This document shows positions 1 to 1,624 of a stretch of DNA of 24,759 nt, piece after piece. The notes beneath the pieces are model-generated. The model did no database searches, was not told the DNA's origin, and was given only the letters and a program-made list of their open reading frames with translations. The DNA comes from a virus, in IMG/VR virus record IMGVR_UViG_3300007346_000219, positions 1 to 24,759 of that record. One strand, 5' to 3'. Position 1 is the first letter of the stretch, and each line of letters starts with the position of its first letter. Position numbers and translations under genes: made by a program.

Positions 1-200
1 CTAACAAAGTTTCCGTTCCTTCCTGTCTTGAAGCACTGCCATAGACCACTATCTACATTAACGGAGCAGTGTCGCTTGTAGTCATTCCTTATAAAAGGAG
101 ACTCCATGATAAATTCACGGTCATTCGGAGATAAACGTCCGATATCAGAAAAATTGCTGGTAAGGAACTCTCTAATAAACTGAGGTGAAATCATGTACAT
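1..200 (-). CDS. CHC2-type DNA primase, N-terminal part (runs off left edge)
   Basis: Reading the minus strand from an ATG at 200-198 gives about 66 codons with no stop before the edge. The translation contains SPFIRNDYKRHCSVN, then GLWQCFKTGRNGNF. This follows the layout of the primase zinc-ribbon (CHC2) domain, in which PFH...PSF.VN is followed by G.YHCFGC..GGD. The zinc ligands are only partly conserved here (H and C before VN, C in WQCF), as in divergent phage primases. The protein probably starts primer synthesis for phage DNA replication; catalytic TOPRIM or helicase domains would lie outside the window. A second in-frame ATG is at 194-192. I prefer 200 because GGAG (213-210) lies 9 nt upstream of it. 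The start overlaps head to head with the plus-strand nuclease gene. Family assignment is by motif memory only. Confidence 0.62.
   Translation of the reverse strand, partial: MYMISPQFIREFLTSNFSDIGRLSPNDREFIMESPFIRNDYKRHCSVNVDSGLWQCFKTGRNGNFV
182..187 (+). promoter_or_regulatory. Shine-Dalgarno site of the nuclease gene
   Basis: GAGGTG sits 5 nt before the ATG at 193, a good position for a ribosome binding site, and supports that start. It lies inside the coding sequence of the minus-strand primase gene. Confidence 0.6.
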
Positions 201-981
201 AAATACTATCTCCGAATCTAAGTATCAAACTTTTAAACAGTGCCAATTGAAATACTGCTTCCGCTATGTAGACAGGCTACCTGAGCCAGAAGAGGCCAAC
301 ACTGAGGCCCTGCACTTTGGATCTTATATCCACAAGGTTCTTGAGGACGGCGTAGAAGCCAAGACTCAAGAAGAGATGGAGCAGATTGCTGAGGGTGTAA
401 AGGGCACATGGGATATATCAAAGAAGTACGAAGGCAAGGATTCTATTTGTTTCCGTAACTTTCTTGAGTTCAACGCTGGCTTAGAGGGCAGCATCGCCAC
501 AGAGCTAGTCTTTCAGGTTCCTGTAAAGGACGACATTACCCTTAACGGAGTCATCGACCGAGTGATCAAGGGGAAGGACGGAGGCTATCTGGTGATCGAC
601 TACAAGACCTCCAAGAGGGAGAAGAGCAAGGTAGACCTATACCAGGACTCACAGTTGAAGGGTTATGTTTACGCTATTAGTAAGCTGTACGATGTGCCCA
701 TCAAAAACATTGTGGCTGCACATTACTACCCTTTGACCAACAACTTCGTACATGTTCAGTACAGTGTACCTCAAATCAATGCTCATGTCAAGAACATCGT
801 TGATGAGGTCTGGAAGATCAGGAAGAAGAAGAAAGCAGAGCTAAAGCCTAGCAGAAACGACTTCTGTAACTGGTGTGCCTACAAGGGTCTATGCCCTGAG
901 TATAACGATCCACAGACCTGCACCAAGAAGTTTGACGAGCTAAAGGCTAAGAAGAAATCTTCTTCAAAGAGCCAAAAATAA
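193..981 (+). CDS. RecB/Cas4-like PD-(D/E)XK nuclease with Fe-S cluster motif
   Basis: This 262-aa protein has the ordered motifs of the PDDEXK_1 / Cas4-like exonuclease family. It has an N-terminal SESKYQTFKQC with Cys17, a GSYIH motif with His47, GVIDRV with Asp122, VIDYKTSK with Asp136 and Lys138, a QLKGYVYA motif with Gln154, and a C-terminal cysteine trio C225-x2-C228-x5-C234. Cys17 and the C-terminal trio are the classic four ligands of a [4Fe-4S] cluster in Cas4/AddB-type nucleases. The tail is lysine- and serine-rich. The protein probably degrades or resects DNA ends during phage replication, recombination or host DNA breakdown. The ATG at 193 has GAGGTG 5 nt upstream. The start overlaps the divergent primase gene, and the 3' end overlaps a convergent small gene by 35 nt. 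All catalytic residues appear intact. The biological role (5' or 3' exonuclease, or recombination partner) cannot be told from sequence alone. Confidence 0.85.
   Translation: MYINTISESKYQTFKQCQLKYCFRYVDRLPEPEEANTEALHFGSYIHKVLEDGVEAKTQEEMEQIAEGVKGTWDISKKYEGKDSICFRNFLEFNAGLEGSIATELVFQVPVKDDITLNGVIDRVIKGKDGGYLVIDYKTSKREKSKVDLYQDSQLKGYVYAISKLYDVPIKNIVAAHYYPLTNNFVHVQYSVPQINAHVKNIVDEVWKIRKKKKAELKPSRNDFCNWCAYKGLCPEYNDPQTCTKKFDELKAKKKSSSKSQK
210..213 (-). promoter_or_regulatory. Shine-Dalgarno site of the primase gene
   Basis: The minus strand reads CGGAGAT here, with 9 nt between GGAG and the ATG at 200-198. From the alternative ATG at 194 the spacing would be 15 nt, which is too long. The site therefore favours the upstream start. 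It is embedded in the first codons of the nuclease gene. Confidence 0.45.
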
Positions 982-1246
982 AAGGCTTATAGATATCTAT
1001 ATCTATTGTATGGAAGAAGTTAAGCACTTGCTCTTGTGAGTATTTACACTTCTTAGTAAGATAGTTAAAAAGCATTTCCTTCTTTATAGGCTTTTGTCGA
1101 TTCATAGAATCGAGAAGCTTAAGCTGGAAATGCTTTATAAATTTTTCACTATACTTATGTCTCCACTTTTCTGTAAAGGCATTACTCAGTGTATGATTTA
1201 TCAGGTCAAGGAAGTCTACTATTTCTATGTCTATGTTTTTGCTCAA
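947..1246 (-). CDS. Small helical protein of unknown function
   Basis: This 99-aa minus-strand reading frame would start with TTG (1246-1244); an in-frame TAG lies four codons upstream and there is no earlier ATG. AGG 8 nt before the TTG is a weak ribosome binding site. The protein is basic and rich in Lys, Phe, Ile and Leu, with no recognisable catalytic motif. Its predicted character is alpha-helical (IVDFLDLINHTLSNAF, then KYSEKFIKHFQLKLLDSM), with a terminal segment IDIDIYKPFIFG. The composition looks like real coding sequence, and no plus-strand frame explains this stretch. It converges on the nuclease gene, with which it overlaps by 35 nt, and diverges from the structural block. A regulatory or DNA-metabolism accessory role is possible but unsupported. 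If the TTG start is wrong, the next Met is at residue 48 and the product would be much shorter. Confidence 0.6.
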   Translation of the reverse strand: MSKNIDIEIVDFLDLINHTLSNAFTEKWRHKYSEKFIKHFQLKLLDSMNRQKPIKKEMLFNYLTKKCKYSQEQVLNFFHTIDIDIYKPFIFGSLKKISS

Positions 1247-1282: not shown

Positions 1283-1624
1283 ATGAGATTTATTTCAAAA
1301 GCAATCCTGAATTTTTTATCCAAAGTAGGTGTAAATAGCGACCAAAGAATACAGATGGTCCCTAAATCAGCCTCAGGGATTCGACCAGGGAGTATAGTAT
1401 TCTTTAAATATCAAGAATCTAGCGTAGTTCTTTTGGTGGTTAGTCCAGTAGTCAAGGACGCTAAGACGGGCAATAGACTATTCACTGGTTTTAAGGTTCC
1501 TTTGGGTGAGGATTATACACCTGAATCCTTGACAAATCTATATAAAAATAAGGAGCTTCCTACAGATAATTACAGGACATATATCCTGTCTAAGATAAAA
1601 GGACCTGTTAGGAGAATCAAGTAA
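1283..1624 (+). CDS. Conserved-looking small phage protein of unknown function
   Basis: This 113-aa protein is the first gene of the plus-strand tail block. After a basic amphipathic N-terminus (MRFISKAILNFLSKVGV) comes a beta-rich core: RPGSIVFFKYQ, VVLLVVSPVVK, RLFTGFKVPLG, then LYKNKELPTDNYRTYILSKIKG with a basic end (PVRRIK). The SIVFF.Y / VLLVVSP / FTGFKV strand pattern suggests a small SH3-like or OB-like barrel, but I do not recognise the family. Only a weak GAG-type ribosome site precedes the ATG. The stop overlaps the next start (TAATG at 1622-1626), tying it to the tape-measure candidate. It may be a tail assembly or structural accessory protein; this is inference from position only. 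Confidence 0.7.
   Translation: MRFISKAILNFLSKVGVNSDQRIQMVPKSASGIRPGSIVFFKYQESSVVLLVVSPVVKDAKTGNRLFTGFKVPLGEDYTPESLTNLYKNKELPTDNYRTYILSKIKGPVRRIK

Follow-up and report, generated by a model that had tools for sequence, protein, structure and literature searches.

A nuclease gene and a primase gene form a divergent overlapping pair in the viral DNA analyzed here, and both are real genes. The embedding of start signals in this pair is one-sided: those of the nuclease lie within the codons of the primase, whereas no conserved counterparts were found for the primase. The model that we favor, with a probability of roughly 0.6, proposes that the nuclease would be expressed from these embedded signals and the primase from a read-through transcript arriving from upstream. 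The window, by which we mean the whole stretch of 24,759 bases, is a linear IMG/VR record (IMGVR_UViG_3300007346_000219), and the pair belongs to a lineage of uncultured T4-like tailed phages.

The two proteins and their shared 5′ ends

The nuclease gene (193–981, plus strand) encodes a protein of 262 aa of the RecB/Cas4-like PD-(D/E)XK family, with profile matches to PDDEXK_1 (1.9e-31) and Cas_Cas4 (5.4e-08). The PD-(D/E)XK core with its catalytic D...(D/E)xK is present, and residues C17, C225, C228, C234, D122, D136 and K138 are invariant in 12 of 12 diverse homologues; we take the four cysteines to be the predicted ligands of an iron-sulfur cluster. The primase gene is cut by the window edge, so that only its first 66 codons (3–200, minus strand) are contained in it. 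The initial annotation had read this minus-strand frame as a primase and had proposed a profile search, which bears the reading out: the closest relative, the primase of locus L082, is 100% identical over the 66 aa of the window and extends to 331 aa, with matches to Toprim_2 (2.2e-12) and to the PHROG DNA primase (5.4e-28). It harbors the Toprim catalytic domain, and E218, D261 and D263 are invariant in 12 of 12 homologues. For the CHC2 zinc finger, Zn_ribbon_DnaG scores 14.8 bits, below its cut-off of 24.9, and C56 is the only cysteine in this region that is nearly invariant among 12 homologues; to judge from its sequence, the zinc finger is degenerate. A tblastn search of the 66-aa piece against phage records gave no match, and the full primase and nuclease match these records only below 60% identity, so that this collection holds no close relative.

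Read directly from the letters, the nuclease starts with the ATG at 193–195 on the plus strand and the primase with the ATG at 200–198 on the minus strand. Both 5′ ends therefore share positions 193–200, the palindrome ATGTACAT, in the 8-bp head-to-head overlap that had been described for this locus and that most of the sampled junctions also have. A second in-frame primase ATG is found at 194–192 on the minus strand, within the CATG at 192–195. Both candidates are present in the window and in ten close relatives, whereas 52 of 79 rows in one junction table have no primase ATG candidate other than that of the 8-nt overlap. The primase may start at this ATG rather than at 194–192. The window has no Rfam match at gathering scores.

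Conservation of the arrangement

The search for relatives covered 346 loci, with a 595 kb phage and contig pieces left out. Both genes were found in 334 of them, nine had the nuclease only and three the primase only. As the initial annotation suggested looking for the arrangement in related phage contigs, it is relevant that the two genes are divergent in all 334 fetched loci that carry both, and that 98 of 101 distinct sampled junctions overlap or abut. The overlap is 8 nt in 79 junctions, 2 nt in nine, 0 nt in eight, 11 nt in one and 17 nt in one, and the three remaining junctions have spacers of 27, 30 and 46 nt. A smaller set of 265 loci with both genes, all of them divergent, yields 98 distinct junctions (8 nt in 81, 11 nt in one, 2 nt in eight, 0 nt in six, and spacers of 27 and 30 nt in two); its total differs from that of the larger set because the stretch over which junctions had to be identical to be merged was not of the same length. 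Junction counts are preferable to locus counts, since contigs recur across the locus searches. In four of the searches behind these loci the best 80 of 227, 374, 321 and 265 relatives, respectively, were kept, so that more distant junction forms may be missed.

The overlap is also kept at low similarity: a contig from a Maricaulis bin has the 8-nt form, its nuclease and primase being 48% and 42% identical to the best query. In a primase tree of 72 rows, whose bootstrap is not settled and in which many forks are weak, most deep branches carry the 8-nt form and one deep group carries the 0- and 2-nt forms. The three rows with spacers cluster with a single 8-nt row, that of L180 (support 81/59).

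Several trivial origins of the overlap can be discarded. An assembly or strain error is ruled out by the divergent orientation in 334 of 334 loci. A misannotated start, the error described in PMC2478687, is ruled out by conserved nuclease residues from codons 1–5 and by the Shine-Dalgarno sequence that precedes codon 1. A third candidate, that the 8 bp are essential, is also ruled out: the 8 bp themselves are dispensable, since junctions with an overlap of 0 or 2 nt, and three with a spacer, also exist.

Two records from the edges of the search are worth describing. In the 595 kb phage (LR756511.1, L272), distant homologues of nuclease and primase are likewise divergent, with a 204-aa gene on the primase strand between them and a 54-nt spacer between this gene and the nuclease; a scan seeded with the primase of this phage found no relative. 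A member contig (QCKN01000003.1, L296) is catalogued under the Prochlorococcus single-cell genome AG-409-P03, which is either a host hint or contamination; this contig and that of L191 are both 130,604 bases long.

It could be argued that plain genome compaction is enough to explain the junction, the two starts having grown together until neither was movable, with distant promoters for both genes and no regulatory coupling. The coexistence of overlaps of 0, 2, 8, 11 and 17 nt with spacers of 27–46 nt fits this explanation, and four long contigs are indeed rich in short divergent gaps and contain several convergent overlaps. However, of the 38 divergent pairs that a crude gene caller predicted in these four contigs, only six have a gap below 0, and four of these six are the nuclease/primase pair itself, as matched by hand from the coordinates (one of the four has, we think, a wrongly picked start). 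The codons at the junction, treated below, weigh further on this explanation.

Gene neighborhood

Among the junction representatives the gene order is UvsW (minus), up254 (plus), up342 (plus), in some loci up184 (plus), primase (minus), nuclease (plus), ORF99 (minus), ORF113 (plus) and then the tail genes. up254 encodes a baseplate protein of the T4 type, with a PF12322 match in L192, and ORF113 (1283–1624, plus strand) is the first plus-strand gene leading into the tail and baseplate genes. ORF99 (947–1246, minus strand) encodes a protein predicted to be mostly helical, and its 3′ end overlaps that of the nuclease by 35 bp (947–981). Among the 98 junction representatives plus the window, ORF99 was found in 95 of 99, each time in minus and never in plus orientation, the remaining four loci (L058, L060, L094 and L245) ending before it; up342 was found in 88 of the 99 and UvsW in 68, the rest being mostly cut by locus ends. 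The structural model of ORF99 has a mean pLDDT of 92.8. Its sequence has no confident match in the PDB (best E 0.037), and its fold has none at E ≤ 0.001 in either the PDB (best E 3.9) or BFVD (best E 3.7). In L191, L192 and L067 an extra minus-strand gene, DUF1360-like in L192, lies between the nuclease and ORF99.

The divergent ORF99 and ORF113 are separated by an AT-rich spacer (1247–1282), a candidate promoter region for the minus-strand unit. No terminator-like site was found on the minus strand between 1246 and 200; given this and the layout, a minus-strand transcript could run from ORF99 through the antisense of the nuclease into the primase.

Shine-Dalgarno sequences are unevenly distributed among these genes. 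At the 4-mer level they precede the nuclease in 98/98, up254 in 58/62 and up184 in 18/19, and UvsW in 2/58, ORF99 in 5/92 and the primase in 5/98; the plus-strand genes up342 (38/81), ORF616 (28/54) and ORF113 (11/72) do not follow a clean split. The spacers between UvsW and up254 (for example in L015, L018 and L191) hold a palindromic box of the type ACTATWATAGT. In most of the loci listed it lies a few nt before the UvsW start, as in a leaderless gene, and about 10–35 nt before up254, the baseplate gene, which in most cases has a Shine-Dalgarno sequence. In 11 of 14 contigs the strict 11-mer is present only once or twice.

Nuclease start signals within the primase codons

Two elements precede the nuclease on the plus strand. 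The Shine-Dalgarno sequence GAGGTG (182–187) lies over primase codons 5–7, and a −10-like box, TCTAAT (171–176; consensus TNTAAT), lies over primase codons 9–10. Both are present in 98 of 98 junctions (the Shine-Dalgarno sequence as a 4-mer, the box at −22 in 89 of the 98) and each of them in 100 of 101 in the wider set.

Synonymous-site conservation, measured in 95 nucleases and 89 primases, indicates that these letters are maintained through the codons of the primase. In the primase, no window is more constrained than codons 4–11 (z 5.6), and from codon 12 onward the constraint has fallen to background. Codons 6 and 8–11 are nearly fixed, and codons 3, 4 and 7 are near expectation. Pro6 is CCT in 85 of 86 primases with proline, and Ile9 is ATT in 88 of 89. 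At codon 10, which is AGA in 62, AAA in 22 and ATA in five, the amino acid varies among Arg, Lys and Ile while the plus strand reads TNT in 89 of 89. Read on the plus strand, the fixed codons are the AGG of the Shine-Dalgarno sequence and the TNTAAT box.

Synonymous recoding gives the same picture: the box is kept in 88 of 89 primase coding sequences against 32.3 expected, and the Shine-Dalgarno sequence in 88 of 89 against 54.3. When the primases are thinned by similarity to sets of 69, 57, 32 and 21, with the spacer loci left out and 400 recodings, the box is found in 69/69, 57/57, 32/32 and 21/21, against recoding means of 24.7, 19.5, 11.5 and 5.9 and maxima of 35, 28, 18 and 11; the Shine-Dalgarno sequence is found in 68, 56, 31 and 20, against 39.5, 31.9, 17.1 and 10.8. 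The 57 thinned loci, from which boxless and spacer loci had been excluded beforehand, give the consensus TCTYTAATAWA. These 57 loci also share a nearly constant AANTT between −20 and −16 relative to the box; this constancy is due to amino acids, because the codons of Asn16 and Phe17 are at synonymous background.

Genome compaction alone does not account for this upkeep of TNTAAT at synonymous sites in primases that share very little similarity, nor for the stop of the constraint at primase codon 11, and we consider compaction rather unlikely as the whole explanation.

The three loci with spacers, L182, L186 and L306, have a CTATNATAG box within the spacer. In L186 (primase codons ATC AAA GAT) and L306 (ATA CGA GAA) the box is absent from the primase. 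In L182 the primase retains ATT AGA GAC even though the spacer box is present.

It may be asked whether the frozen codons serve the primase itself, as the open, AU-rich start of an mRNA that has no Shine-Dalgarno sequence, instead of a nuclease promoter. Folding around both starts in the window is weaker than in shuffled sequences (z 1.82 and 1.85), as such a role would have it, and the first codons of other genes are conserved too: the excess at the 5′ end is 0.25 in up342 and 0.21 in ORF113, compared with 0.36 at the primase peak. Part of the primase signal could therefore be a start-region effect, and conserved first codons alone are no proof of an embedded signal, since both neighbors show such an excess. 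Little or none of it is found in UvsW, up254 and ORF99, however, and UvsW and ORF99 are the genes that, like the primase, mostly start without a Shine-Dalgarno sequence. Moreover, read from the opposite strand the invariant letters give TNTAAT and AGG, and the frozen codons are lost in two of the three spacer loci, which are better controls than the first codons of neighboring genes. A role in the primase alone is thus improbable, and the reading of these codons as nuclease start signals is the one that we retain.

Other stretches are also constrained. Codons 1–8 are the top window of the nuclease (z 3.8), with codons 2–4 and 8 carrying the peak, and the primase has a secondary peak at codons 44–54 (z up to 3.3). 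A TATAAT-like element on the plus strand at or near the nuclease ATG (ctataATG), which maps to primase codons 3–5, occurs in 45 of 89 primases, where recoding predicts 28.4. In up342, codons 1–5 recur as ATG CAA TTA AAC GGA in many of the loci listed, for example L015, and in UvsW the synonymous sites of codons 337–363 are strongly conserved in places, with an excess of about 0.3 in 54 sequences.

Primase start signals

A GGAG lies upstream of the primase start (210–213, minus strand), and had been proposed as its ribosome-binding site. Few relatives share it. A 4-mer Shine-Dalgarno sequence precedes the primase in only 5 of 98 junctions (6 of 101 in the wider set), and with the start taken at overlap 8 throughout it is found in 5 of 95 against 6.3 on recoding; since it is no commoner than recoding predicts, the GGAG of the window is at chance level and the proposal is not supported. 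With the start again at overlap 8, the 3-mers GGA, GAG or AGG are commoner than expected before the primase (62 of 95 against 47.0), so that the primase may have a weak ribosome-binding site.

In the nuclease, the excess of TATAAT-like elements on the minus strand, taken by 3-codon bins in 95 sequences, revealed no conserved primase promoter; among the eight highest-excess bins listed, such elements occur in only 11–26 of the 95. Nuclease codons 69–85 are a region of secondary constraint (z up to 3.1) that could hide a minus-strand promoter. A sigma-70 match at 763–791 on the minus strand was considered as a primase promoter and rejected, with three sites against 3.7 in shuffles and variable codons at that place.

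The initial annotation had placed each ribosome-binding site, and of necessity each promoter, inside the other gene. This stands for the plus strand, where the nuclease has its Shine-Dalgarno sequence and a promoter-like box within the primase; on the minus strand it is not supported, the Shine-Dalgarno sequence of the primase being at chance level and no conserved promoter for it having been found in the nuclease. The same asymmetry bears on the switch that had been suggested from reciprocal embedding, in which primase and nuclease expression would exclude each other through polymerase occlusion or antisense RNA, as in an excludon. The promoter-like box inside the primase, which any minus-strand transcript entering the primase must cross, would give such a switch one of its two halves. 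However, no conserved primase promoter or Shine-Dalgarno sequence was found inside the nuclease, and the exact overlap is not essential, so that a reciprocal switch seems quite unlikely and one-sided embedding is the reading carried forward.

Type of box and candidate sigma factor

The nuclease box has no recognizable −35 element, and its second position is mostly C or T. A match to Sigma70_r2 is found in nine of nine long contigs, over the Pfam cut-off in only one of the nine, and Sigma70_r4 was found in none of them. The T4 late sigma factor gp55 is not known to have a sigma region 4. The Sigma70_r2 proteins comprise a small form of 114–128 aa in eight of the nine contigs and a longer one of 197–215 aa in three; contig G010 has only the longer form (197 aa). 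One of the 114-aa sigma-like proteins matches the PHROG family 'late sigma transcription factor' at E 0.003.

As stated in PMC10268837, sigma-70 needs an A at position 2 of the −10 element. The nuclease box is thus not a standard −10, because this position is mostly C or T. In T4, gp55 recognizes late promoters by a short motif, TATAAATA, whose counterpart in Aeh1 is CTAAATA (PMC1524935; PMC7618050 deals with another gp55). The nuclease box is similar to that of Aeh1. A T4-like late promoter defined by the TATAAATA motif was considered for the nuclease and rejected, the box reading TCTYTAATAWA; the exact motif occurs in the window at chance level (two against 1.73 expected), neither occurrence being near the junction.

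In two contigs the small sigma-like gene is itself head-to-head with a DNA polymerase exonuclease/UDG-like gene (L288:16144–17528 and L285:12780–14157). The spacer of 14–16 nt contains little beyond a palindromic CTATAATAG box, which lies a few nt from each ATG, so that both mRNAs would be leaderless. Leaderless signals of this kind are described in PMC3160421.

Proposed model

The proposed model states that the nuclease would be expressed from its own compact signals, the box at 171–176 and the Shine-Dalgarno sequence at 182–187, both kept in primase codons 5–10. Transcription would start near 182–184, giving a leader of about 10 nt; this predicted start falls at or inside the Shine-Dalgarno sequence, which is tight and counts against the model. 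The primase would start without a conserved Shine-Dalgarno sequence, on a transcript coming from beyond the nuclease, probably from the ORF99 gene, that would cross the whole nuclease gene in antisense as in a noncontiguous operon. This upstream read-through is suggested by the lack of conserved signals of its own near the primase start, together with the minus-strand position of ORF99.

From the sequence data we infer that the embedded box acts as a promoter, and that it may be read by the sigma-region-2-only protein of these phages. The two strands may be used at different times of infection, or they may interfere with each other. Interference is plausible because a minus-strand polymerase must cross the nuclease box to reach the primase.

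An extension of this model would turn the arrangement into a time-ordered toggle written in coding sequence, in which the embedded nuclease promoter ends priming and starts nuclease action. Early in infection, read-through from ORF99 would make the primase and keep the nuclease promoter cleared. Later, the region-2-only sigma would load polymerase on the box in primase codons 9–10, so that the nuclease would be made with the plus-strand structural genes and the minus-strand polymerase would be blocked from the primase. We regard this extension as speculative and unlikely.

Relation to known systems

Among prokaryotic gene overlaps the divergent kind is the rarest, making up 1% (457) of the well-characterized ones, and 75 long divergent overlaps (>60 bp) that were checked have been attributed to annotation errors (PMC2478687). 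The strong underrepresentation of divergent overlaps is probably due to the need to encode regulatory elements upstream (PMC2174442). As far as these two sources go, they agree with the earlier remark that divergent genes normally have a spacer. No published description of this primase/nuclease pair was found among the papers listed on divergent overlaps, leaderless divergent phage genes, opposite-strand Shine-Dalgarno sequences and noncontiguous phage operons, a search in which few subscription journals were covered.

The layout resembles the noncontiguous operon described for menE-menC-MW1733-ytkD-MW1731 of S. aureus (Saenz-Lahoya 2019, as reviewed in PMC7154746), which according to that review is found in staphylococcal phages too, in that the plus-strand nuclease sits between ORF99 and the primase, both on the minus strand. 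Within this layout, the nuclease of the window overlaps its neighbors at both borders. Unlike the noncontiguous operon, the 5′ end of the nuclease overlaps the primase start and its signals lie in primase codons; in a noncontiguous operon the outer genes share one polycistronic transcript antisense to the inner gene, and here such a transcript is predicted from the layout. The excludon, as presented in PMC7154746, is similar in that the layout would yield overlapping antisense transcripts, but no conserved second embedded promoter was found here.

Bidirectional promoters with a symmetrical −10 element (Warman 2021, as described in PMC10268837) have their likeness in the palindromic CTATNATAG-type boxes between divergent starts, in the UvsW/up254 spacers and in L182, L186 and L306. 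In contrast, the box of the window is inside the primase and faces the nuclease, rather than lying between the starts. With T4-type late promoters it shares a short box, without a recognizable −35 element, before a gene that has the same orientation as the tail genes. A C is common at its second position, as at −12 in the Aeh1 late promoter CTAAATA, although TCTYTAATAWA differs from the T4 sequence TATAAATA.

The pair therefore combines known kinds, a divergent overlap and the layout of a noncontiguous operon, and what is unusual in it is the depth of its conservation and the one-sided embedding. A short divergent overlap is conserved here across very dissimilar primases, and it suggests a solution to the conflict between such genes, in which the start signals of one are kept in the codons of the other, which itself has no conserved signals. 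It also offers a natural system for measuring promoters and Shine-Dalgarno sequences within a conserved protein code, with the spacer loci as natural controls.
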